44,576 nt of DNA, taken from assembly GCA_937930025.1 (NCBI GenBank), contig CALGJW010000158.1, forward strand, positions 1 to 44,576, written 5' to 3'. The position numbers and the translations under genes were made by a program. Within the stretch, counting starts at the first letter, position 1. Each line of letters opens with the position of its first letter. The notes below the pieces were generated by a model. The model did no database searches. It was given only the letters and a program-made list of their open reading frames with translations, and was not told the DNA's origin. Of this stretch, positions 2-12,459 are shown one piece after another. Origin of the DNA: an uncultured Saprospiraceae bacterium. Lineage in GTDB: Bacteria; Bacteroidota; Bacteroidia; Chitinophagales; Saprospiraceae.

Positions 2-2296
2 ATAAATCCACCAAGTGCTACGAATCCATTTACGATAGCGAATTATGATCCAAGTTTATTGGAGATTAAATTTACAAATCCTGCTTCAACAAGTACTGCT
101 TTTAATTATACAACTACTGATGCTGCGGATGAAACTTCACCGGAGGCTACTTATACTTTAAACTATGCTGCTGTAGAAAAAGGAAGCTTATCTGGAACAG
201 TGTTCAATGATGCAGATGGATTGGTAAATAGTACAGTTGATGGAACTGCATTTGACGATCCTGATGGATCGCAATTATATGCAACAATTTATGAAACTGG
301 AACTACTACTGTTTTAGCAAGTCAAGCTATTGCTGCTGATGGTACTTATTTGTTTGACAACTTGGTACCAAATACAGATTACAATGTTATCATAAGCACA
401 ATTACTGGAACACCTGGTTCAGCCATACCTACGATTGCCATACCTACTGATTGGATGCACACAGGAGATAATTTAGGAACAGGTGCAGGAAATGATGGGA
501 CTCCAGATGGAAGTCAAGTAACTTTATCTGTGGGAACAACAGAATTGCCAAATGTAAATTTCGGAATTCAAAAATTACCTACAGCAGATGATTATACGTA
601 TACCATTCCAGATCCAATTTTGAATTCATTCATGGAAATAGGTGTAGGAGCTAAGTCTGGATTGAGCGGGGATGATTTTGAGGATGGAGCTTTTAATGAT
701 GGTGAAAAATTTGGGATTACAAGTTTGCCAACCAATGGCAATGAATTATATTACATGGGTACGCAAATTACAGTTGGAGACGATGGAATCAATCCTCCTT
801 CACCAAGTAACCCGTTTACTATTCCTGTCTATAATCAGGCGTTTTTACAAATGAAATTCACAGGAAACGGATCTACTACCACTTCATTTGACTATGTAAC
901 TATAGATGCAGCTGGAGAAATGCCAACAACTCCTGCTACTTATACGATGAATTATTCAGCTGTAGTTTCAGGAAGTTTATCTGGAACAGTTTTCAATGAT
1001 GCGGATGGATTGACAGATAGTACAGTAGATGGAATTGGAATTGATGATCCAGAAACAACACAATTGTATGCAACATTATTTGATGCCACTTCGGATGAAG
1101 TATTAGCATCGATACCAGTAGCAGCGGATGGAACTTTCCTTTTCACTGAGCTTACTCCGGATTCAAATTATGGAGTTTTAATTAGTACCAATCAAGGAGT
1201 TGTAGGGCCATCGTTACCAACGATCTCTTTGCCGACTGATTGGGTCAATACAGGAGAATTTAGAGGAACAGGAACCGGGGATGACGGTATGGTAAATGGA
1301 ACGCAAACTGCTCTTTCAGTAGGGACTTCATTGTTGCCAAATGTGAATTTTGGAATCAATAAGATTCCTGAAGCAGATGATTATACTTTTGGAATTGACA
1401 ATCCAGTACCTGATTCTTATTTTACAATAGGTTCAGGAGCTACATCTGATCTGTCTGGAGATGACAATGAAGACGGTGTATTGGGAACTAATGACAAATT
1501 TGGGATTACAAGTTTGCCTACAAGTGGAAATGAACTATACTATAATGGTGCTAAAATTACGCTTGGTCAGGACGGTACAAATCCACCAAGTGCAACAAAC
1601 CCTTTTGTAATTGACAATTATGATCCTACTTTGTTAGAAATTAAATTTTCAGGTGGTCCTCAGAGTTCTACTTCATTCGATTACGTTGCTATTGATGAGG
1701 CTGGTTTTGCAGATGCAACACCAGCAACATACGAGTTGTCATATTCTGCTCTTCCTGTGGAATGGGCGGCATTTACGGCTACTAAAAACGGAGAAAGTGC
1801 AGATATTTATTTCGCGACTTCTAGTGAAAAAGATAACAACTTGTTTTTTGTACAGAAGTCTTTGGATGGAGAAAACTTTAGAAATATTCATACCATTCTT
1901 GGACAAGGAACATCAGATTACCTAAGTGAATATTACTTTGTAGATCCAGTATTGAATCTTGGGCTTAACTACTACAGAATCGCTCAAATCGATTATGATG
2001 GTTCAATGAGTTATACGGAAGTACAAACAGTGATGTTTGATGCTACTCATAGCACAATGGTTTATCCAAATCCAGCTCCAATTAACTCAGAAGTAAAAGT
2101 AAAATATTACTCTGGAGAGGAAACTATAATTGCCACAGTTACAAATATGCTAGGAGTGGTAGTAAAATCAATTGAGTTGAACAACCCGGGTGGTTGGAAT
2201 GAAACTTCCATTGAATTAAATAATCTTGCTGCAGGAACTTATGCTTTAAGAATTGGAGATCGTCAAAACGCAGTGATCTTCAACATAGCTGAATAG
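2..2296 (+). CDS. Large secreted repeat protein with T9SS type A sorting domain (5' end missing)
   Basis: The frame is open to the left edge, so at least 765 residues of the C-terminal part are present and the start lies outside the window. The visible part is built from long repeats of about 263 residues. Each repeat holds an SdrD B-like/CarboxypepD-like beta module (motif SLSGTVFNDADG), then a segment with DDYTY and FGITSLPT. The last about 185 residues contain the YYRIAQIDYDGS motif common before T9SS tails, then a type A sorting tail with YPNPAP and GTYALRIGD. It should therefore cross the outer membrane through the type IX secretion system and be attached to or released from the surface. 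Adhesin or structural surface protein is the likely role by family; no catalytic domain is visible. It converges on the next gene with a shared terminator. Confidence 0.9.
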   Translation: MNPPSATNPFTIANYDPSLLEIKFTNPASTSTAFNYTTTDAADETSPEATYTLNYAAVEKGSLSGTVFNDADGLVNSTVDGTAFDDPDGSQLYATIYETGTTTVLASQAIAADGTYLFDNLVPNTDYNVIISTITGTPGSAIPTIAIPTDWMHTGDNLGTGAGNDGTPDGSQVTLSVGTTELPNVNFGIQKLPTADDYTYTIPDPILNSFMEIGVGAKSGLSGDDFEDGAFNDGEKFGITSLPTNGNELYYMGTQITVGDDGINPPSPSNPFTIPVYNQAFLQMKFTGNGSTTTSFDYVTIDAAGEMPTTPATYTMNYSAVVSGSLSGTVFNDADGLTDSTVDGIGIDDPETTQLYATLFDATSDEVLASIPVAADGTFLFTELTPDSNYGVLISTNQGVVGPSLPTISLPTDWVNTGEFRGTGTGDDGMVNGTQTALSVGTSLLPNVNFGINKIPEADDYTFGIDNPVPDSYFTIGSGATSDLSGDDNEDGVLGTNDKFGITSLPTSGNELYYNGAKITLGQDGTNPPSATNPFVIDNYDPTLLEIKFSGGPQSSTSFDYVAIDEAGFADATPATYELSYSALPVEWAAFTATKNGESADIYFATSSEKDNNLFFVQKSLDGENFRNIHTILGQGTSDYLSEYYFVDPVLNLGLNYYRIAQIDYDGSMSYTEVQTVMFDATHSTMVYPNPAPINSEVKVKYYSGEETIIATVTNMLGVVVKSIELNNPGGWNETSIELNNLAAGTYALRIGDRQNAVIFNIAE
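182..1749 (+). repeat. Tandem 789-bp (263-codon) coding repeats
   Basis: Two consecutive units begin at about 182 and 971, exactly 789 bp apart; the internal DDYTY segment recurs at 584 and 1373 with the same spacing. The tail of an earlier unit fills 2-181, and it resembles the 1575-1700 copy more closely than the middle copy. DNA similarity is high at the unit start (about 85-90% by eye over the first 55 bp). Such in-frame repeats can expand or contract by recombination. Confidence 0.85.
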
Positions 2297-2327
2297 AATC
2301 ATGGGTACCTAAAACATTAAAAGAAAG

Positions 2328-2366
2328 AGGGCCGATAATCTTATGATTATCGGCCCTTCTTGTTTT
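2328..2366. terminator. Bidirectional rho-independent terminator between convergent genes
   Basis: A perfect 13-bp stem (AGGGCCGATAATC at 2328-2340 with its complement at 2345-2357) closes a TTAT loop. It is followed by a T-rich tract on the plus strand and preceded by an A-rich tract that serves the minus strand. It lies between the stop of the repeat protein and the stop of the convergent sugar dehydrogenase. Confidence 0.85.
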
Positions 2367-2376
2367 TCCTGAATCT

Positions 2377-3504
2377 TTATTTTACGATTTTATAAATCCC
2401 TTCGTATTCCAATGAGACATATAAAAAGCCGTCAGGCGCTTGATAAATATCTCTTACCCGACCTTTTTTATCAAACAATCTTTCTTGTCGAACAATCTTT
2501 CCGTCTTTAACAACGCAGCGATTCAAATATCTAAACTTTAATGATCCCACTAGAAGATCACCTTTCATGTCGCCATAATAATCTGAAGTAACGAAGTCAG
2601 TACCACAAGGAGCAATACTCGGAACCCAAAACAATAAGGGTTGTTCCATGCCTTCTTTTTTCGTGATGTCCGTAAACTTTGTGCCGTTGTAGTTAATACC
2701 ATAACTGATTACAGGCCAACCGAAATTTTTTCCAGCTTCAATGATATTTACTTCATCACCACCTCTTGGTCCATGTTCCGTATCCCAAATTTTGCCCGAA
2801 GTAGGATTCAATACTAATCCTTGCGGGTTTCTATGCCCATAGGAATAGATTGCTTTTTTCGCGTTTGGGGTGTTGAAAAATGGATTGCTTTCCGGGATGC
2901 TTCCGTCATCATTAATACGATAGATCTTACCACCATCTTTTGTAATGTCCTGTGGATTGTTATCTCGATCACCTCGATCTCCAATTGAAAAATATAAATA
3001 GCCAGCTTTGTCAAAAGCGATTCTTCCTCCGAAGTGATAAGGTTTGTCTGTATCAGGCATTCCTTTGTAAAGTTGCTCGAGATCAATTAACTTATTGTCG
3101 GCTAGTTTCGCTCTATAGATGGCCGTGTTTCCTTTTTCACCATCTGCCGATATCGAAACTGCAAGGTAAATCCATCCATTCTCTTCGTAATTAGGATGAA
3201 GAACAACTTCAAAGAAACCACCTTGGCCATTTTCATAGACATTTTCAAAGTCATGAATAGTCGTTTTTTTGCCCTCCTTAAAATGAATAAGCTGACCAGC
3301 TTTTTCAGTATAAAGTAAGGAGCCATCCGGCAATTGAGCGATACCCCAAACGATTTCCACATCGTCAACAACTTTCTCCAATTTTAAGCCACCATCATGC
3401 TCTGCTACAGGAATCGGGTTTTCCGGTTGGGCCGAAGAGCAGTTGTGGAATAACAACAGCATCAAAACCCAAAACGGAGATATATTTTTTCTCATTTTAA
3501 ACAT
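2377..3504 (-). CDS. PQQ-dependent sugar dehydrogenase (GSDH/YliI family)
   Basis: Soluble-type beta-propeller aldose dehydrogenase, 375 aa, the normal length for the family. It would oxidise aldose sugars with PQQ in the periplasm or at the membrane. Family signatures run in order: WGIAQLPDGSLLYTEKAG (near 55), GGRIAFDKAGYLYFSIGDRG (160-180), YSYGHRNPQGL (220s), TEHGPRGGDEVN with NFGWP (240-265), and LLVGSLKFRYLNR near the C-terminus. The N-terminus is hydrophobic and ends in FHNCSS, so it may be a lipoprotein, although that lipobox is not canonical. The second Met (3495) is an equally good start. No PQQ biosynthesis genes lie in the window, so the cofactor must come from elsewhere. Transcribed alone, divergent from the mbnP-like gene with a 124-bp gap. 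Confidence 0.88.
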   Translation of the reverse strand: MFKMRKNISPFWVLMLLLFHNCSSAQPENPIPVAEHDGGLKLEKVVDDVEIVWGIAQLPDGSLLYTEKAGQLIHFKEGKKTTIHDFENVYENGQGGFFEVVLHPNYEENGWIYLAVSISADGEKGNTAIYRAKLADNKLIDLEQLYKGMPDTDKPYHFGGRIAFDKAGYLYFSIGDRGDRDNNPQDITKDGGKIYRINDDGSIPESNPFFNTPNAKKAIYSYGHRNPQGLVLNPTSGKIWDTEHGPRGGDEVNIIEAGKNFGWPVISYGINYNGTKFTDITKKEGMEQPLLFWVPSIAPCGTDFVTSDYYGDMKGDLLVGSLKFRYLNRCVVKDGKIVRQERLFDKKGRVRDIYQAPDGFLYVSLEYEGIYKIVK

Positions 3505-3628
3505 TTTTGTAAATATAAAAAGTAATCTGTGGTTGAAATGATCTAATTTTGAAAAACTTTGAATATCAATTTTACATTTTAGTTTTTATTAGGTCAAAGA
3601 TGTTTGATTAATTTACAATGGCAAGACT

Positions 3629-4318
3629 TTGAGAAATAATATCTTAATAGGCATTTTGTTGTTGGCTTCTGGATCAATTCGAGCCCAAGAGGATATTCTT
3701 TTTGAACTCCATTTTGAGCCATTGCTTCATAATACTTCCCTGCTGGTGGAAAACAATCGTGAGGAGTTTGCCTCATATGACTTGACAGTTGAAACATTGA
3801 AATTTTATCTTTCGAGTTTCGAGTTATACAATGACGGAAAACCAGTTTTCTCAACTATCCAAAATTGTTATTTACTTGACTTAGCTGATCCTGACAGTTG
3901 GAAAATTTCTTTGACTATTCCAGAAAAACTGTCTTTTGATCAGTTAAATTTCCAATTAGGTGTAGACAGTTTGACAAATGTGAGTGGAGCCATGGGCGAC
4001 GATTTAGATCCAGTCAATGGGATGTATTGGACTTGGCAAAGCGGTTATATTAATTTTAAGCTAGAAGGTACTGCAACAACTTGTCCCGCTCGAAATAATC
4101 GCTTTCAATATCATATCGGTGGGTATCAGGCGCCATTTGAATCCTTGCAAACTATACAGCTTCCTGTGAATCCTAACTCAAAAATTTCTATAACTTTAAA
4201 TTTAGATACTATTTTCAACGAAGTGAACCTGTCCGAAAATTATAAAATAATGAGCCCAAGTGAAAGTTCCACTATTTTTTCAAAACTATTAAAAAAAGCT
4301 TTTGTAATTAAGAGATGA
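3629..4318 (+). CDS. MbnP-like copper-binding protein
   Basis: 229 aa with a signal peptide (cleavage after about residue 19, SIRAQ). It carries the MbnP-family hallmarks LKFYLSSFEL (58-67), GMYWTWQSGYINFKLEG (131-147, with Trp134 and Trp136) and FQYHIGG (159-165), and a Cys pair at 80 and 152. In the studied MbnP protein, copper binding depends on conversion of a Trp to kynurenine by the di-haem enzyme MbnH. The next gene is such a di-haem protein and overlaps by 4 bp (ATGA), so the partnership is likely conserved here. There is no ATG: the only plausible start after the in-frame stop at 3605 is TTG at 3629, which directly precedes the signal peptide. Periplasmic or surface location is inferred. 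Which Trp would be modified cannot be decided from sequence. Confidence 0.82.
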   Translation: MRNNILIGILLLASGSIRAQEDILFELHFEPLLHNTSLLVENNREEFASYDLTVETLKFYLSSFELYNDGKPVFSTIQNCYLLDLADPDSWKISLTIPEKLSFDQLNFQLGVDSLTNVSGAMGDDLDPVNGMYWTWQSGYINFKLEGTATTCPARNNRFQYHIGGYQAPFESLQTIQLPVNPNSKISITLNLDTIFNEVNLSENYKIMSPSESSTIFSKLLKKAFVIKR

Positions 4319-5358
4319 AAATAAAGTTGATCATATCAATGGTTGTTTTAATTATTTGTTCTGCTTCAATGTTACAGGATAAATACGAGTTGTTGTATCC
4401 CAATTATTTTCCCTCGCCAGTTTATGATTTCGAAAAAAATGAATTGACCACTGAAAAAATAGAACTAGGTCGAGCATTATTTTACGATCCGATATTATCC
4501 AAAGACAATAGCATCTCTTGCGCAAGTTGTCATTCACCCTATAATGCATTTGCTCATACAGATCATGACCTGAGCCATGGAATAGAAGACAAAATAGGTA
4601 TTCGCAATGCGCCAGCTTTATTTAATCTCGCCTGGCAAACTACCTTCATGTGGGATGGAGCCATAAATCATCTAGACATGCAAGCGCTGGCGCCTATCAG
4701 TTCCCCAACGGAGATGGGAGAAGATTTTAAAAATGTAGTAGAAAAAATAAAAAGAAAACCAATTTATCCCAAGTTGTTTTTTCAGGCTTACGGGGATAGC
4801 TTAGTTACCGGAGAGCGATTGCTTAAAGCACTTTCTCAATTTCAATTAACTCTTGTGTCGGCTGGTTCTAAGTATGATGGGGTAAAAAAAGAAACGGCTG
4901 AGTTTAGCGACCAAGAAACTGCAGGTTATATCACTTTCTTGAAGCATTGTAATGCTTGTCATCGAGAACCACTTTTTTCAACCTATCAATTCAAAAATAA
5001 TGGATTGAGTATAGATTCCTCCTTGAATGATTTCGGAAAGGGAGTAATTACCCAAAAGGCTAAAGATAGCCTACTTTTTAAAATTCCTTCCCTTAGAAAT
5101 TTGAGTTACACCTATCCGTACATGCACGATGGTAGGTTTCGAAAATTGAAAGAAGTGATCAACCATTATACTTCAGGAATTCAAGAAACTGCAACTTTGG
5201 ATGTACGATTGAAAAATGGAATTTCCCTGACGGAAAATGAAAAGGTTGATTTATTGGCCTTCCTATTGACTTTGGATGATAAAAATTTTGTTTTCAATCC
5301 AAAAAATAAATTTCCAAAAAAAATATTACTTCCAAGCGAAGGAATTATGAATAACTAA
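4315..5358 (+). CDS. Di-haem cytochrome c peroxidase/MauG-like protein (MbnH-like partner)
   Basis: 347 aa with an N-terminal signal sequence, two c-type haem motifs (CASCH at 69-73, CNACH at 212-216) and the family segment YPYMHDGRF (268-276). These place it in the bacterial CcpA/MauG/MbnH superfamily. Its ATG overlaps the TGA of the mbnP-like gene, so the two are translationally coupled. That makes an MbnH-like role (oxidising a Trp of MbnP to kynurenine) more likely than detoxifying H2O2. Residues that separate MauG/MbnH from true peroxidases cannot be assigned without an alignment. Periplasmic. Confidence 0.87.
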   Translation: MKIKLIISMVVLIICSASMLQDKYELLYPNYFPSPVYDFEKNELTTEKIELGRALFYDPILSKDNSISCASCHSPYNAFAHTDHDLSHGIEDKIGIRNAPALFNLAWQTTFMWDGAINHLDMQALAPISSPTEMGEDFKNVVEKIKRKPIYPKLFFQAYGDSLVTGERLLKALSQFQLTLVSAGSKYDGVKKETAEFSDQETAGYITFLKHCNACHREPLFSTYQFKNNGLSIDSSLNDFGKGVITQKAKDSLLFKIPSLRNLSYTYPYMHDGRFRKLKEVINHYTSGIQETATLDVRLKNGISLTENEKVDLLAFLLTLDDKNFVFNPKNKFPKKILLPSEGIMNN

Positions 5359-5389
5359 TGTCATACTATTATTGCAAAAAAAAATACGA

Positions 5390-6745
5390 ATGAAAAAGAC
5401 TAGCCTTTTTATCTTTTTGTTATCCTTTTATATGAGCGCCATGGCTCAATTGAGCCCTGCTATTACTTCATGGCTTCAGAATACCACCGAAACTGGGACC
5501 TATTATGTCCAAGGAAATTCTACAGCCATTGATAATGGAATAATTTATAACTGCCAGAAAGTAGAATACTCAGCTGACTTTGTTTATGTGACGGCAACTG
5601 GAATTCCCTCCTACCCAACAGGACCTTTTCTAGATGGGAATCCCTCACAAGCATCGAATCAAGATGCAATTTTCAAAATTCCTTTAAGCCCAGTGGCTAA
5701 TCCCGGAACGCCGGATAATACAACTGGAGGAAACATCGGTGTTTTTATTAACGGAGTTGCGCTATTCGATTACAGAGATGGGGTAGCTTGGAATCCGAAT
5801 ACGAATGCACTTTGTGGTGGGCCGGGAAATGATCCTTGTCCAGGTGGGCCAATGGCACAAAATGATTGGAACAGAGATGCTATCCCCGCTGAGCGTGCAG
5901 GATTCGATTGTTCAAAAGCCCATCCAGCGATGGGAAATTATCACCATCATCAAAATCCCTCTGCATTCAAATTAGATCTTGAGGTGGTTTCTGACATTTG
6001 TAATTTATATGACGCAGATGGTTTATATGCTATCAATGCTTCAGAACATTCTCCATTGATCGGTTTTGCTTATGACGGATTTCCAATCTATGGCGCCTAT
6101 GGTTTTAAAAACATAGATGGATCTGGAGGAGTTGCTCGAATAAAGTCTAGTTATCAATTAAAAAATATAACTACTCGTCCCAATGGACCTGATGTGGATT
6201 TAGTAGTTGGAAATCAAACGCTTTTTTTAGGATATTTCAGAGAAGATTATGAATATGTGGCACAGACTGACGAGGATTATTTGGATGAACATAATGGAAG
6301 ATTTTGCGTAACGCCAGAATATCCGAATGGCACTTACGCCTATTTCGCAACTGTCGATGACAATTGGAATTCTACCTATCCATATGCAGTAGGGCCTACT
6401 TTTTACGGGAATAGAGAAAATAGAAAGGTGAATGCTGTGGATGAAGCGACCACTGTTTACGATGTGGTTTCGTCAATTTCAGCATTGGATTTTCAAAAAT
6501 TGGATATCACTGTTTTCCCAAATCCAACCAGTGACCTAATTGCTATTCAGATAAATGATTTAGCAAAGGAAGAGTTTACAATTGAGTTGATTGATCTTTC
6601 AGGTAGAGTGGTGGCGGACTCAAAAATAGAGCATGGTAGTACCATTGCTTATTTTGATACACAGACGATTTACTCGGGAACATACATTGTGCGAATCGCT
6701 GCTGGGGCGTTTAGTACTACAAAGAAGGTGACTATAGTAAAATAG
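5390..6745 (+). CDS. YHYH-domain protein with T9SS sorting tail
   Basis: About 451 aa from the ATG at 5390; an upstream in-frame TTG at 5372 is less likely because the signal peptide begins at MKKTSLFIF. The YHYH domain fills roughly residues 90-340. Its namesake motif reads GNYHHHQNP (about 182-190), and the conserved GFAYDGFPIYGAYGF follows near 225-239. The last about 80 residues are a T9SS type A tail (VFPNPTSD, GTYIVRIAAG), so it is predicted to be exported to the surface. The YHYH family has no firmly established activity that I know of; the His cluster suggests metal binding. It lies 31 bp after the MbnH-like gene on the same strand, probably one operon. It ends 6 bp from the convergent TonB receptor. 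Confidence 0.87.
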   Translation: MKKTSLFIFLLSFYMSAMAQLSPAITSWLQNTTETGTYYVQGNSTAIDNGIIYNCQKVEYSADFVYVTATGIPSYPTGPFLDGNPSQASNQDAIFKIPLSPVANPGTPDNTTGGNIGVFINGVALFDYRDGVAWNPNTNALCGGPGNDPCPGGPMAQNDWNRDAIPAERAGFDCSKAHPAMGNYHHHQNPSAFKLDLEVVSDICNLYDADGLYAINASEHSPLIGFAYDGFPIYGAYGFKNIDGSGGVARIKSSYQLKNITTRPNGPDVDLVVGNQTLFLGYFREDYEYVAQTDEDYLDEHNGRFCVTPEYPNGTYAYFATVDDNWNSTYPYAVGPTFYGNRENRKVNAVDEATTVYDVVSSISALDFQKLDITVFPNPTSDLIAIQINDLAKEEFTIELIDLSGRVVADSKIEHGSTIAYFDTQTIYSGTYIVRIAAGAFSTTKKVTIVK

Positions 6746-6751
6746 AAAATA

Positions 6752-9022
6752 TTAGAAATAACGAGAGACACTGAGCTTGCCAAAATAATTTGTTGGACGC
6801 CCCGGGTAATAATACCTTGGGGCGTTTCCGCCAAAGGACCCTGCGTTAATCAATAACATAGAAGCATATTTTTCATTTAATATATTATTTAATCTTAAGG
6901 ACCAAGCAATTTGCCATTTGGCAATTGGAATGATTTGCTGCAATTCTACGTCCAATAAATTATAACTATCCTGAGTGAGTACATTATCATCTCTCAAGAA
7001 CATTTCTCCAACCGTTTGTTGTTGTAGCGATATATTAATCTTTAAAGGGAGTCGTAATAGTAAAGCAAGTCTATGCCGGTATTGAGGAAGTCCTGGGAGG
7101 AAATTTCCATCGTAACGTGCTCCATCGTCTTCAAATTCTACAAACTTGAATTGCTGTAGGTTCAACATCCATTGCAGGTCAAGTCTTATTTTGTTTTTGG
7201 AAAAAATTTGGTAATCTCCTTGGTGTTCTAAACCGATGGATCTACTTTTCCCTGCATTCACTCCGATAAATTCATCTAATGCAGTTCGTCTTGCGACCAA
7301 AAGATTTTTCACAGTCAAATGATAAATATTAAAAGCGAGGTTTCCTTTTTTATTTTTGAATACTTTTTTCCAGCCCAATTCGGAGTTCCAACCTTCCTCT
7401 GGAACAATGTCTGAATTGATTAATCCATCGGGTAATAAAGTCTCTTCCAAAGTGGGAGGAGAAAAACCATGACTTACATTAAGAGAAAAATGTTGTAACT
7501 CGTTGGGTTGATAACTGAGATCAAATTTTGGTGAAATAATAGTAGGGAAAGAACGATCTGAAAGAGCGGATGGATTAGGGTTTATATCATCCTCCAGAAA
7601 ATACTTGCTTTGATTAACATTAAGTCCTGCTGATAAATTTATTGCATTGTTGATTTGATAGCCAGCTTGAATAAAAGTATTCAGTACTATTTTATTTTCA
7701 ACATAAGCGCTAAAGGCTGCTCCTGGTTTAGAAGCAAAATCAGAGAAGGGTTCTTCAATCTCAGTTTCATAAAGAATCCAATCTCTATCATCTCTGTGGA
7801 ATTCTATTCCTCCCAACCAATTCAGTTTTTTTGAATCATTTTTATTCTTCCAAGTTGCTCTTCCACCCAAGCTATGGTTAGAATTAAATATTGAGTTAAA
7901 AGGTCGAATTTCAGTTTCATTAAAGTGTTTGTAAAATATTGCGATTTGTTGGTCAAAATATTTAAAATTTGTTTTCAAATTCAAACCGACCAAGTATTGC
8001 TTAGAATCTTCAAAGCCATTGGACTGGTCCCAAGTAAATGCAGCTTTTTCAGGATTTGATAAATTATTAGATTCATTCAATGAAGAAGGAATTTGTGCTT
8101 TTAAATTGGTTTGGGAATAAAGAATTTCCAAATTACTTTTTTGGCCTAGTTGCTGACTCGCAAGAATATTGAAATTTGTTCGCTCAAAAATATTATTGTC
8201 GCGATAACCCTCGTTTTGATCTTGGTCAAAAGCAAAATAAATCTTGTTTTTGTCGCCTCCACGTTGCGCTCGAAATCCATTATGTAGGCCGCCATAACTT
8301 CCTACTCCACCTGTAAGAACAACTTTAGTCAATCCAACAGGAGCATCAATAGGATTCAAAATTATTGTGCCTCCAAGTCCTGCTCCGTACTGATTGCCAC
8401 TTGGCCCTCGAATCACTTCAATCGACTCCAAATTTTCCAGCGTAATATTTTCTACACTCGATTCCCCTGAGCCATTGGTCAAAGGAATGTTCCCGTAGTA
8501 AGCGCGAATTTTTGCGGTGCCAAAAAGATTGCGACTGCCGATTCCTCTGATAGTGATTCGATTGGTGTTTAGGGTTCCAGCATGCATGAAAACCCCTGGG
8601 GCTTGATTTAGTACCGTACCGTAATCCAAATGATCACTAAGTTGAATATCTTTTTTATCGATTCTGGAAACGGCTGAAGTGGTGATTAATAGAGCCTGGG
8701 CTCTATGATTTCCAAGTACAACAGCTTCGCTGAGTAAGTAATCTGATGGAACTAATCGAATCGTAGGATCTTGGATGCCAACAGCCATTCTTTGCGCTAC
8801 GTATCCCAATACCTGAATGATCAGACTATCTTGGACGACCAATTCAAATTTTCCATATTGATCAGAAAGGGTAGAGTTGGAATCTGGCAGGCTGATTAGG
8901 AGCGCATTAGGGACTGGCTCTAAATTGCTGTCATCGAGAAGTACTCCTGAGGCTAGCTTTTGCGAATAAGCATTGGTAAGAAATGAGCCAAAGAAAATAG
9001 CAAGGAACCAATATTTCATCAT
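6752..9022 (-). CDS. TonB-dependent outer-membrane receptor
   Basis: 756 aa. Signal peptide (cleaved near SYSQ, 21), then a CarboxypepD_reg-like beta domain (about 22-95), a plug domain (about 110-230, with APGVFMHAG, ITIRGIGSRN, ESIEVIRGPSGNQYGAGLGG) and a 22-strand-type barrel ending in an aromatic residue (RYF). This is the siderophore/metal-chelate class (FecA/BtuB-like). No SusD partner is adjacent, which argues against glycan uptake. It converges on the mbnP-mbnH-YHYH operon and lies 37 bp downstream of the thioredoxin-fold/PKD gene, so a copper or iron chelate is a reasonable guess for its substrate, but this is inference. Confidence 0.9.
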   Translation of the reverse strand: MMKYWFLAIFFGSFLTNAYSQKLASGVLLDDSNLEPVPNALLISLPDSNSTLSDQYGKFELVVQDSLIIQVLGYVAQRMAVGIQDPTIRLVPSDYLLSEAVVLGNHRAQALLITTSAVSRIDKKDIQLSDHLDYGTVLNQAPGVFMHAGTLNTNRITIRGIGSRNLFGTAKIRAYYGNIPLTNGSGESSVENITLENLESIEVIRGPSGNQYGAGLGGTIILNPIDAPVGLTKVVLTGGVGSYGGLHNGFRAQRGGDKNKIYFAFDQDQNEGYRDNNIFERTNFNILASQQLGQKSNLEILYSQTNLKAQIPSSLNESNNLSNPEKAAFTWDQSNGFEDSKQYLVGLNLKTNFKYFDQQIAIFYKHFNETEIRPFNSIFNSNHSLGGRATWKNKNDSKKLNWLGGIEFHRDDRDWILYETEIEEPFSDFASKPGAAFSAYVENKIVLNTFIQAGYQINNAINLSAGLNVNQSKYFLEDDINPNPSALSDRSFPTIISPKFDLSYQPNELQHFSLNVSHGFSPPTLEETLLPDGLINSDIVPEEGWNSELGWKKVFKNKKGNLAFNIYHLTVKNLLVARRTALDEFIGVNAGKSRSIGLEHQGDYQIFSKNKIRLDLQWMLNLQQFKFVEFEDDGARYDGNFLPGLPQYRHRLALLLRLPLKINISLQQQTVGEMFLRDDNVLTQDSYNLLDVELQQIIPIAKWQIAWSLRLNNILNEKYASMLLINAGSFGGNAPRYYYPGRPTNYFGKLSVSRYF

Positions 9023-9059
9023 AGCCCAAAAATAGGAATTAGAATTGACGTTACTAATC

Positions 9060-10520
9060 CTATTGCGTCTTCACAAATTTTTCCATTATTGTCTTATCTC
9101 CAATTGTGATTTCAAGGAAATATACTCCTTGTAATAATTTTGATATATCGAATTGAGTTGAAGTTCCAAATTTTTCAGTAATGACTTCAAATTTTCTACC
9201 CACCGTATTGTAAATTACAAATGCATGTTGCGAGGATTCAGGATGCTTCAAATTTAGCATACCGCTGCTTGGATTTGGAAACAAACTAAATTTCCTTAAT
9301 GATAAATCTGAATTATTTGATACAGTTATACAGGATGTTGGCCGCACTTCCCATTCATAAAAATAGTAGTAATTGTTATCATTGCCAGTATGTCCATGAA
9401 TGGATATCAAATCATTCAAAACATACGGATACTCATTATGCGTATCGATTCGAAGAAATCGCTCGGACGCAAGACCTAATTGGAAATTTTGACCAATAGG
9501 AACAAAAAAATTGAGTTCAACACGATGTTCTCCTTCTGGGATGTTGACAATTTTAGATTCTAGAACATCACCTGCTTCGTTAGTTAAAACTATAGTTCGT
9601 GGTTGCTCTTTCTGGCTATAGACTTTGACACTAGAAATAATTAAATCATCATAGGAGTCAAAGATCAATTTTCGATTTAATCCTTCGTTATAAGAACCAG
9701 ATCCAGAATTTACCCCTCCAACGATTTGATGGGCTGGAGTGTCCCCATCTCCGATCTTTATAAGTTCAGTTTTTGAAATTTGGTTTTCGCCAAAATCATT
9801 TGTTACTTTTAAACTAACTGAATAATCTCCTTCGGATTCATAATAGTGCAAAGGTGATTGTTCAATTGAAGTATTTCCATCTCCAAACTCCCAAAGCCAG
9901 GAAGTTGGTCTTGGCCAAGATTGATCTTCAAATTGAACTTCCAAAGATCCACAGCCATACTGTTTGTCCACAATGAAAAATGGCTCACTGGCATAATTGA
10001 CGCTAGGACATTCCTCCAATTCCTCAAGTCCAAAAGCAACACCCTGACTTCGAATTCCATTTATTTTTTCAATTTTTCTGTCTTGACAAATTTTTAAAAT
10101 GGTAGGATAGGAGTTGATTTTATAAATTTCTGCCATCATGGAATGTTCTAGAATTGGATAGGATGCTCCATTTGTCCAGTTTCCTTCTGTATTATTTCCA
10201 ATGCCATATATTGCATCTGTATCTGTACTTAAATAACTCTCAATCATTAATATTACGGCTTCGTCAGTTCCGGCTGGACCCACCTCCAGATATAATTCTT
10301 CCAATATTTTGGTATTGTGCCAATTCCAACAAGGGACGCAACCCGTAAAGAAAAAATCTACGATAACATCTTTGCCTGAGGCTAAAATATCATAGAGATT
10401 ATGTTCTTCTCCATTCAGATCAACACCTGTAAAATTCGGCGCAATGGTTCCATCTGGCAACTGCGAAAACGAGTTGATTGAAATCAATAGGCAGAAAAGT
10501 ACTATTAGTTTTCTTAGCAT
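9060..10520 (-). CDS. Secreted thioredoxin-fold (TlpA/AhpC-TSA) protein with PKD domain and T9SS tail
   Basis: 486 aa from the ATG at 10520, chosen because MLRKLIVLFCLLISI is a clear signal peptide; the frame is open further upstream. Residues 22-170 form a TlpA-like thioredoxin fold with the redox pair C61-V-P-C64 in FFFTGCVPCWNW. Residues about 185-265 are a PKD domain (WLWEFGDGNTS, YSVSLKVTN). A beta-rich middle follows, and the end is a T9SS type A tail (LFPNPSSGML, GVYFLEITIGDK). A surface thiol-disulfide reductase or redox chaperone is likely by family. It sits 28 bp after acsA and 37 bp before the TonB receptor on the same strand. Confidence 0.87.
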   Translation of the reverse strand: MLRKLIVLFCLLISINSFSQLPDGTIAPNFTGVDLNGEEHNLYDILASGKDVIVDFFFTGCVPCWNWHNTKILEELYLEVGPAGTDEAVILMIESYLSTDTDAIYGIGNNTEGNWTNGASYPILEHSMMAEIYKINSYPTILKICQDRKIEKINGIRSQGVAFGLEELEECPSVNYASEPFFIVDKQYGCGSLEVQFEDQSWPRPTSWLWEFGDGNTSIEQSPLHYYESEGDYSVSLKVTNDFGENQISKTELIKIGDGDTPAHQIVGGVNSGSGSYNEGLNRKLIFDSYDDLIISSVKVYSQKEQPRTIVLTNEAGDVLESKIVNIPEGEHRVELNFFVPIGQNFQLGLASERFLRIDTHNEYPYVLNDLISIHGHTGNDNNYYYFYEWEVRPTSCITVSNNSDLSLRKFSLFPNPSSGMLNLKHPESSQHAFVIYNTVGRKFEVITEKFGTSTQFDISKLLQGVYFLEITIGDKTIMEKFVKTQ

Positions 10521-10548
10521 TGCTTTATGGTTCGTTGAATTTACTTTC

Positions 10549-12459
10549 TCAAATATTACTGGCACCAAGTTTTATTTCCTCGACTACTTCGGGGTTTAGT
10601 AGGGTGGATACATCCCCAAGATTACCAGTATCTTTTGAAGCAATCTTCCTTAAAATTCTCCGCATGATTTTACCAGAACGTGTTTTTGGCAGTCCGCTAA
10701 CGAATTGAATTTTATCCGGTTTTGCAATTGGACCGATTTCCTTGGTGACAGTTGCTATGATTCCTTTGCGCAATTCATCATTCAATTCGGCTCCCTGGGT
10801 AATCACATAGGCATAAATACCTTGGCCTTTTATATCATGCGGATATCCTACGACCGCAGATTCCACCACTGCTGGATTTTCGTTAATGGCATTTTCGACT
10901 TCCGCAGTTCCCATTCTATGGCCGGATACATTGATTACATCATCCACTCTTCCGATTACTCGGATGCGACCATCTTCATCGCGCCTTGCGCCATCACCAG
11001 TGAAGTACATATTTTTAAATGCGGAAAAGTAAACATTCCTGCATCTTTCATGGTCACCATAAGTCGTGCGTATCATGGAAGGCCATGGGAATTTTATACA
11101 AAGTAAACCTTCCACATCGTTGCCCTCTTTTATATTCCCATCTGTGTCAACCAATACCGGCTGAATACCGGGAATGGGGTAGGAGGCATAAGTTGGTTTA
11201 CAATCTGTAATACCAGGAAGCGGGGTAATCATAATTCCTCCAGTTTCGGTTTGCCACCAGGTATCAATGATTGGTGCATTTCCTTTACCGATATGCTTAT
11301 CGTACCAATGCCAAGCTTCCTCATTGATAGGTTCACCAACGGAGCCTAATAGCTTTATAGAAGAAAGATCGTATTTAGCAGGCCACTCCTCTCCTTTTGC
11401 CATCAATGCGCGTATAGCAGTTGGTGCTGTATAAAATTGATTTACTTTATGCTTCTCACAAATTTCCCAAAATCTTCCGGCGTCAGGAAATGTGGGTACT
11501 CCTTCAAACATCAGGGTGGTTGCCCCGGCTAGTAATGGTCCATAAACAATGTAGGAATGTCCAGTGATCCAGCCTATGTCTGCGGTACACCAATAAATAT
11601 CTCCCTCTTTATATTGAAAAACATTTTTGAATGTGTAACAGGTGTATACCATATATCCTCCGCAGGTATGAACAACTCCTTTGGGTTTTCCAGTTGAACC
11701 GGAAGTATAAAGAATGAAAAGCATGTCTTCTGCATTCATTATTTCTGCTGGGCATTCAGTCGATTGTGTATAGACGACGTCATGCCACCATCGATCTGTG
11801 TCATCTGACCACATTAAGGTATCTCCATCTATGTCTGCGGTTTGCAAAACCATAACGTGTTCCACAGAATTACATCCAATGTCCATGGCGTCATCAACGA
11901 CTTGCTTTACAGGAATTTGTTTTGTTCCGCGATAATTATAATCAGAGCAAATAATCATCTTAGCTTCTGCATCATCGACTCGGTCGGCCAAAGCTTGTGC
12001 GGAAAAACCGGCAAAAACGACGGAATGAACTGCTCCGATTCTAGCGCAGGCCAATACAGCAATTGCGAGCTCGGGTACCATTGGCATATAAAATACTACT
12101 CGATCTCCTTTTTTTATTCCTTTGCTTTTAAGCCCATTTGCGACCTTGCAAACTTCTTCTAACAATTGCTTATACGTAAATTTTTGTACCGGGTCTCCAG
12201 GATTATTGGGTTCCCAAAGAATCGCAACTTGATCTCCTCTTGTGGCAATATGTCTGTCGAGGCAATTTTCTGTGATATTGACTTGGCCATCTTCAAACCA
12301 TCGTACATCAGGTCCATCAAAATTCCAATCGAGCACTTTAGTAAATGGTTTTTGCCATTGAAAAGTTCTGGCTTGTTCCGCCCAAAATTCCTCCGGGTTG
12401 TCCACCGATTTTTTATATACTTCTTTGTATTCTTCTAATGATTTTATCTGGTGTGTCAT
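10549..12459 (-). CDS. acsA: Acetyl-CoA synthetase (AMP-forming)
   Basis: 636 aa, full length for Acs. It activates acetate to acetyl-AMP and then acetyl-CoA in the cytoplasm. Motifs in order: ADP/AMP-binding P-loop YTSGSTGKPKGVVHT (about 256-270), the acetate-site segment WWQTETGGIMITPLPG (about 410), GRVDDVINVSGHRMGTAEVE (about 515), and the C-terminal catalytic lysine Lys597 in TRSGKIMRRIL, which is the site acetylated by Pat-type enzymes in other bacteria. The start MTHQIKSLEEY is unambiguous. First gene of a possible three-gene minus-strand run with the PKD protein and TonB receptor, although no functional link is obvious. Confidence 0.97.
   Translation of the reverse strand: MTHQIKSLEEYKEVYKKSVDNPEEFWAEQARTFQWQKPFTKVLDWNFDGPDVRWFEDGQVNITENCLDRHIATRGDQVAILWEPNNPGDPVQKFTYKQLLEEVCKVANGLKSKGIKKGDRVVFYMPMVPELAIAVLACARIGAVHSVVFAGFSAQALADRVDDAEAKMIICSDYNYRGTKQIPVKQVVDDAMDIGCNSVEHVMVLQTADIDGDTLMWSDDTDRWWHDVVYTQSTECPAEIMNAEDMLFILYTSGSTGKPKGVVHTCGGYMVYTCYTFKNVFQYKEGDIYWCTADIGWITGHSYIVYGPLLAGATTLMFEGVPTFPDAGRFWEICEKHKVNQFYTAPTAIRALMAKGEEWPAKYDLSSIKLLGSVGEPINEEAWHWYDKHIGKGNAPIIDTWWQTETGGIMITPLPGITDCKPTYASYPIPGIQPVLVDTDGNIKEGNDVEGLLCIKFPWPSMIRTTYGDHERCRNVYFSAFKNMYFTGDGARRDEDGRIRVIGRVDDVINVSGHRMGTAEVENAINENPAVVESAVVGYPHDIKGQGIYAYVITQGAELNDELRKGIIATVTKEIGPIAKPDKIQFVSGLPKTRSGKIMRRILRKIASKDTGNLGDVSTLLNPEVVEEIKLGASNI

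Follow-up and report, generated by a model that had tools for sequence, protein, structure and literature searches.

A conserved MbnP-MbnH-YHYH operon of probable copper type in Saprospiraceae and other Bacteroidota

The MbnP protein of methanotrophs carries a kynurenine whose formation depends on the di-haem enzyme MbnH. Outside methanobactin operons, MbnPH genes are already known, and the proteins MopE and CorA are not markedly similar to MbnP in sequence (PMC3621798). In Proteobacteria, operons that start with a homologue of the copper regulator CruR can contain MbnPH-like genes (PMC9426467). We analysed a stretch of DNA from an uncultured Saprospiraceae bacterium (contig CALGJW010000158.1 of assembly GCA_937930025.1, a genome that is 74% complete). 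The whole stretch of 44,576 nucleotides is called the window. It contains a triad of genes for an MbnP-family protein, an MbnH-like enzyme and a YHYH-domain protein. The triad is conserved as an operon, and we consider it probable that it is of copper type and works without methanobactin.

The three genes follow each other on the + strand in the order MbnP, MbnH, YHYH, as seen in the map of open reading frames (ORFs):

3629..4318, + strand: MbnP-family protein of 229 amino acids with a signal peptide and a TTG start (PF20243, 141 bits; fold match to 7l6g)
4315..5358, + strand: MbnH/MauG-like di-haem enzyme of 347 amino acids (PF03150 di-haem peroxidase, 175 bits; best profile match 6e1c)
5372..6745, + strand: YHYH-domain protein with a sorting tail of the type IX secretion system (T9SS), third gene of the triad (PF14240 and Por_Secre_tail)

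The mbnP and mbnH genes overlap by 4 bp. The YHYH ORF runs from 5372 and has an ATG at 5390, which leaves a gap of 31 bp after MbnH. In family searches with seven genes (window positions 59-10568), none of these was one of the methanobactin genes mbnA, mbnB and mbnC. Elsewhere in the source genome there were four further MbnP matches (on C62, C463 and C21), two of which are direct neighbours on C463, where an MbnH accompanies them.

The conservation of the triad was analysed in 149 genomes of the order, of which 129 had an MbnP. From the best of about 150 MbnP matches listed, 80 loci were fetched; adjacent matches were merged, and weaker matches were omitted along with a short contig. The neighbourhood count comprised 80 loci (79 fetched and the window). 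MbnH was present within 6 kb of MbnP in 79 of the 80, and a YHYH gene on the same strand within 6 kb in 25 (19 downstream, 6 upstream). In L060 the YHYH gene was divergent and was not counted among the 25. The YHYH domain itself was found in 79 of the 149 genomes. When the loci of the best YHYH matches were inspected, 24 of 30, the window included, had MbnP or MbnH within 1.5 kb. For at least 27 of 77 strong YHYH matches, one of the MbnP matches listed (150 in all) was no more than 10 kb away, and among the other 50 there were four with MbnH adjacent. A sample of the phylum gave a close YHYH in 16 of 395 genomes, and in 8 of the 15 besides that of the window MbnP or MbnH was within 1.5 kb of it.

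A further set, called the named set, consisted of the best 80 contigs kept by a pattern scan for YHYH. MbnP or MbnH was present on 69 of them, and in 65 the nearer of these was MbnH, with YHYH downstream on the same strand. On the 11 contigs without MbnP or MbnH, YHYH started within 1.3 kb of the contig end in seven cases and within 160 bp in five. The 69 triad contigs include metagenome-assembled genomes labelled Saprospiraceae, Flavobacteriaceae, Crocinitomicaceae, Chitinophagales, Kapaibacterium and Ignavibacteria. The triad also occurs in the cultured DSM strains Neolewinella persica and N. agarilytica. Between YHYH and the neighbouring MbnP or MbnH the median gap was 50.5 bp, and 83 of the 92 same-strand cases had a gap of at most 300 bp.

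In a tree of 91 MbnP rows, the presence of YHYH required 3 changes, compared with 22.0 in shuffled labels (none of 500 shuffles was as low). The window was placed in a clade of 22 rows, 21 of which have YHYH, and the other four YHYH rows were in a second clade of seven. A different context was seen in 41 rows, which have a small cysteine protein and/or a barrel-like protein nearby and lack YHYH. We conclude that MbnP, MbnH and YHYH form one conserved operon. A first-pass annotation, made from the letters of the window, had proposed a copper system with a T9SS-exported YHYH partner that is independent of methanobactin, and the gene arrangement it described, with no methanobactin genes among the seven scanned, indeed recurs across Bacteroidota.

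Two triad loci have an expanded form. L094 and L098, on the contigs of L271 (N. persica) and L277 (N. agarilytica), respectively, contain extra divergent YHYH-like genes in and around mbnP-mbnH, and L098 also has an SCO1-type gene.

The MbnP protein passed the Pfam gathering score with 141 bits against 27. An AlphaFold model (predicted local distance difference test, pLDDT, 88.9) was compared by Foldseek with the six chains of the solved MbnP 7l6g and matched them with E values of 1.5e-8 to 2.1e-7. Structural alignment to 7l6g gave a Z of 17.4 with a root-mean-square deviation of 3.0 over 205 residues, and the next entry had a Z of 4.6. The sequence identity to 7l6g was 17%. A phmmer search of the PDB with the single sequence found nothing relevant. 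The MbnP profile found 7l6g weakly (E 0.015), with the WTW motif (134-136) on WNW and H162 on a histidine of 7l6g. In the alignment, W134 was kept in 90 of 91 rows, W136 in 89 and H162 in 90. From the likeness to the solved protein we infer that MbnP may carry a kynurenine-dependent copper site through W134 or W136.

The MbnH protein has two CxxCH haem motifs, C69-H73 and C212-H216. When its profile was searched against the PDB, the best match was 6e1c, a 'Di-heme enzyme' (E 8.5e-58), which we take to be the MbnH of Methylosinus; it ranked ahead of the peroxidases and MauG listed. With the single sequence, peroxidases ranked above 6e1c among the solved relatives. Y285 was invariant in 90 of 90 rows and aligned with a tyrosine in 6e1c, whereas the four peroxidases shown have a methionine at this position, which is presumably that of an axial ligand.

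The YHYH protein exceeded the gathering score of PF14240 (190.8 bits against 25), and its Por_Secre_tail scored 49.5 bits in the window. The T9SS tail was found in 27 of 30 YHYH relatives, the trimmed row of the window being one of the three misses. Across the 30 rows W141, E149, D154, H159, Y165-H166-H167-H168, H201 and D210 were invariant (numbered as in the modelled domain). From the sequence, these residues are a plausible candidate metal site. The best model had a pLDDT of 87.6 and a predicted template modelling score of 0.89, and the pLDDT of the other four models ranged from 73.5 to 54.5. Compared with the PDB, the model had no usable match (the best Foldseek E was 1.5 and VIA-align gave none with Z of at least 2), which is no proof of a new fold. 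One of the 30 proteins also had the Pfam domain Cu-binding_MopE, a likeness at the level of a motif; judged from an insert in the alignment, it is probably L076:94-1824. No function of the PF14240 family was seen among the papers listed in a literature search.

Taken together, these features suggest the following mechanism. MbnH, a periplasmic di-haem enzyme of the MauG kind, would oxidise W134 or W136 of MbnP to kynurenine, and this would complete the copper site in MbnP. These steps are modelled on the methanotroph systems CorA/MopE (PMC3912023) and MbnP-MbnH (PMC3621798). YHYH would be exported across the outer membrane by the T9SS and act as a surface-exposed metal-binding partner, with the invariant HP, YHHH and HSP histidines as candidate ligands. 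The kynurenine, the copper and the surface location are all proposals.

The relatives of the operon adjoin regulators of a metal type. In the YHYH type, the upstream genes often encode a sigma factor of the extracytoplasmic function (ECF) class, a small protein resembling anti-sigma factors and a protein of the Spy/CnrX kind. In a cluster of 16 of the latter, 15 were scanned and 11 matched PF13801 Metal_resist (E of at most 0.01), the first narrowly missing the gathering score. Among the 80 named loci, 32 had a sigma factor or SPY gene. Of 20 YHYH genes that lack MbnPH, six also adjoin the cassette of ECF, anti-sigma and Metal_resist-like genes, which is upstream of five of them and divergent from the sixth.

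The sister MbnPH operons, without YHYH, are headed by a small exported protein of about 125 amino acids (for example L041:7191-7580), of which 52 copies were found. A cysteine motif, C..C-x-G-x-C, and a Pro-Pro pair were invariant in 28 of 28 copies. Of 39 non-redundant copies, 34 had the Pro-Pro at a distance of 1-5 residues from the stop; as a control, only 16 of 1145 other ORFs had a Pro-Pro within the last 9 residues. The spacer was kept at 66.5 +/- 3.4 residues despite 15% identity. The protein was found in 96 of the 149 genomes, and the source genome has a copy at C319:2336-2704 (L370). It had no DUF2946 match in Pfam. By its sequence, it looks like a nascent-chain copper sensor of the CutF/CruR type, and CutF-like proteins are reported to be common in Bacteroidota (PMC9973294). 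A copper role is supported by the first genes of these operons, a CruR homologue where MbnPH-like genes share an operon with it in Proteobacteria and a CutF/CruR-like gene in the sister operons here.

The same small protein was also observed just upstream of TonB receptors that are distantly related to the receptor of the window (L384, L389, L174); the one in L384 has a cysteine-rich N-terminal stretch. These three are possibly copper receptors of Bacteroidota. Upstream of MbnP in the sister type there is a protein of about 300 amino acids (L038:9149-10063 and 20 cluster members), whose mature form starts with CDVCGCS in L038. The one member scanned, that of L038, had no Pfam or NCBIfam match, and we read this protein as barrel-like.

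Three further genes flank the triad in the window:

2377..3504, - strand: GSDH-family quinoprotein, like pyrroloquinoline quinone (PQQ) sugar dehydrogenases (PF07995, 395 bits)
6752..9022, - strand: TonB-dependent receptor of a PqqU-like subfamily, outside the triad (TonB plug, 53.8 bits; closest solved relative PqqU)
9060..10568, - strand: protein with a thioredoxin-like (CVPC) part, PKD and a T9SS tail, outside the triad (PKD and Por_Secre_tail matches)

The receptor gene ends 6 bp from the YHYH stop. The thioredoxin-PKD ORF ends at 10568, with a methionine 16 residues further in, at 10520; its protein had weak ResA/thioredoxin matches (E about 1e-4) over the CVPC motif. The first-pass annotation had described the triad, the receptor and the thioredoxin-PKD gene as one copper module. 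Its map of the five genes and their spacing was reproduced by the ORF map and the family matches. It had omitted the GSDH gene, which lies on the other side of the triad so that GSDH and receptor genes bracket it. The module itself was divided by our results: the triad is conserved, but neither the receptor nor the thioredoxin-PKD protein has close relatives near MbnP in the other loci analysed. Accordingly, the conserved neighbourhood beyond the mbnP-mbnH pair includes YHYH, and we rejected the other two as members of the module.

The best solved relatives of the receptor were the PqqU structures 6v81 and 9c4o (E about 1e-24, near full length), and the next best had an E of 9e-7. It was thus closest to PqqU and not to iron or vitamin B12 receptors, the grouping that had been considered. 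A phmmer search (E of at most 10) found no relative in the fetched MbnP loci; blastp gave one weak match of 22% in L065. In the 80 named loci no member of the subfamily was found. Conversely, MbnP, MbnH and YHYH were all absent from 18 stretches around relatives of the receptor in the order and from 26 shorter ones in the phylum. Among NCBIfam models the receptor matched PqqU NF041535 with 113 bits, under the cut-off of 1200. The 18 NCBIfam matches with an E of at most 0.01 did not include TIGR01778, the model for copper receptors of the OprC type, whose presence in the library was unchecked. For the thioredoxin-PKD protein there was no relative at E of at most 1e-5 in the other MbnP loci, where one weak match (E 0.004) was seen in L074, and none at E of at most 1e-4 in the 80 named loci.

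A GSDH-family gene was present within 1.5 kb of the receptor relative in 16 of 30 cases (4 from the order and 26 from the phylum). All 14 relatives in one genus were among them, and two other genera contributed a single case each, which makes three genera in addition to the window. When stretches of 18 kb were inspected for the 18 relatives from the order, another two (L178, L182) had a GSDH gene. Five of the 16 neighbour GSDHs (L211-L215) were 53-59% identical to that of the window, and their genes adjoin a cytochrome c gene (two were checked by family search). The other 11 were of a second type, and the four checked matched PF07995 only in part. No GSDH gene of either type was found in the other MbnP loci or in the 80 named loci. 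The GSDH of the window was closest to solved sugar dehydrogenases (2g8s, E 3.8e-72; 7cdy, E 2.9e-69). A search of the source genome for PqqE gave two matches, both below the cut-off, and the 14 controls also matched below it. In the simplest reading, the receptor and the GSDH protein probably belong together as a PQQ importer and a quinoprotein, their genes lying on either side of the triad, and we infer that PQQ is the ligand of the receptor. The receptor had been annotated as an importer of a copper chelate; its relationship to PqqU and the recurrent GSDH neighbours argue against this.

We therefore favour, with more confidence than doubt, a reading in which the triad is a methanobactin-independent copper-type envelope operon, the receptor and GSDH genes stand apart from it as a PqqU-like importer and its quinoprotein partner, and the thioredoxin-PKD gene is an unrelated neighbour. 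Several results weigh against it. Among the 50 strong YHYH matches with no listed MbnP close by, 20 loci were fetched and all of them lacked MbnPH, and in the phylum sample 7 of 15 genomes had no MbnPH within 1.5 kb of YHYH. The regulatory cassette is missing from the window, and a search of the source genome, at its completeness of 74%, gave no PF13801 protein. For the receptor, the published PqqU signature is Y/F/W99, R304 and R365 (PMC12124388). The receptor has an F at position 99, where every relative shown has an aromatic residue, and F and W at the two arginine positions, and so fails two of the three, in an alignment that is uncertain at about 25% identity. An assignment as a strict PqqU was not upheld by these residues. 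We keep it as PqqU-like because of its similarity and its neighbours. An invariant arginine of an RPF motif, R373 (31 of 31), is close to the R304 and R365 positions and might serve in their place. In addition, a 41%-identical relative of the receptor (G105) adjoins a divergent CopZ-like HMA gene (L170:10349-10564). Finally, with a generic profile built from TonB receptors of E. coli and related ones, unrelated receptors turned up near MbnP, though in just two of the other loci of the MbnP set (L065, L038).

The last two observations speak for the reading that all five genes are one copper-import module, in which the receptor would import a copper chelate and the thioredoxin-PKD protein would reduce copper outside the cell. 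The five genes are indeed side by side, an operon headed by CruR can in Proteobacteria contain both MbnPH-like genes and a TonB receptor (PMC9426467), and the generic profile also found receptors of another kind near the triad, in only two of the 80 named loci (L276, L299). We regard this module as very unlikely, since the receptor and thioredoxin-PKD genes are on the strand opposite to the triad, the receptor subfamily and the triad were never found together outside the window in the loci described above, and the receptor is closest to PqqU among solved structures and recurs beside GSDH genes. Equally improbable, in our view, is a reading with an ordinary cytochrome c peroxidase next to MbnP and YHYH as general surface proteins, and with no kynurenine or metal role. 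The equivalog scores of NCBIfam would fit it, and they too count against the copper-type triad: MbnP reached 33.4 of 140 bits for TIGR04052 and MbnH 204.5 of 362.85 bits for TIGR04039, and because of these scores we file them as MbnP superfamily and MbnH/MauG-like and not as equivalogs. The single-sequence ranking of the peroxidases points in the same direction. Against an ordinary peroxidase are the profile search, where 6e1c came above every solved peroxidase listed, the fold match of MbnP to 7l6g, the presence of MbnH at nearly all MbnP loci and the almost invariant W134, W136 and H162.

A possible but rather unlikely alternative, which overlaps with the copper-type triad, is that the triad serves to sequester metal under stress, be it excess copper or another metal, and not to acquire it. 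A periplasmic Spy/CnrX-like sensor with the ECF sigma and anti-sigma factors would switch on MbnPH and the surface YHYH, which would trap the metal. The cassette of the relatives is of a stress-sensor-like kind and adjoins YHYH even where MbnPH is missing. Its absence from the window argues against this role, and the characterised relatives MopE and CorA are repressed by copper, that is, made under copper limitation (PMC3912023, PMC3621798). More speculative, and in our opinion unlikely, is an extension of the copper-type triad in which YHYH proteins, exported by the T9SS, make up a new class of copper proteins at the cell surface and act as the third component of MbnPH systems in Bacteroidota. 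Copper would pass in one direction or the other between MbnP, which would carry the kynurenine made by MbnH, and YHYH, which would bind it with its invariant histidine cluster. Before T9SS export, MbnH may even oxidise a second substrate, the invariant W141 of YHYH. Each type of MbnPH operon in Bacteroidota would in that case have a metal sensor of its own, one the ECF/anti-sigma/Spy-like cassette and the other the CutF-like nascent-chain sensor.

Compared with the known systems, the triad shares with the methanotroph MbnP-MbnH (7l6g, 6e1c; TIGR04052/TIGR04039) the MbnP fold, the alignment of WxW and the histidine, the adjacent order of the two genes and a MauG-like di-haem enzyme. It differs in that the seven genes scanned in the window include no methanobactin genes, in its low identity to 7l6g and in its scores under the equivalog cut-offs; it also has the T9SS-exported YHYH as a third member, and its relatives have other regulators. 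YHYH in this role was not found in a literature search that covered few subscription papers, and as a third member of the MbnPH system it is the new point here. MopE/SACCP and CorA/CorB can be likened to the triad for a copper protein with a tryptophan-derived kynurenine beside a MauG-like di-haem protein and for the surface location (PMC3912023). The operons of Proteobacteria headed by CruR (DUF2946) likewise contain MbnPH-like genes (PMC9426467), whereas the YHYH type has the ECF, anti-sigma and Metal_resist-like genes upstream, and in the loci seen CruR/CutF-like heads occur only in the sister type. PqqU/YncD, the TonB-dependent importer of PQQ, is matched by the receptor as its best solved relative, in the aromatic residue at Y99 and in the quinoprotein neighbours (16 of 30), but not in R304 and R365, near which the invariant R373 is found. 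In place of one copper story for five genes there are thus a triad of copper type and a pair that probably serves PQQ uptake. The triad would extend tryptophan chemistry of the MauG type to envelope proteins of Bacteroidota, and the tight operon of YHYH with a kynurenine-copper-type pair in cultured DSM strains offers a direct experimental handle on YHYH.

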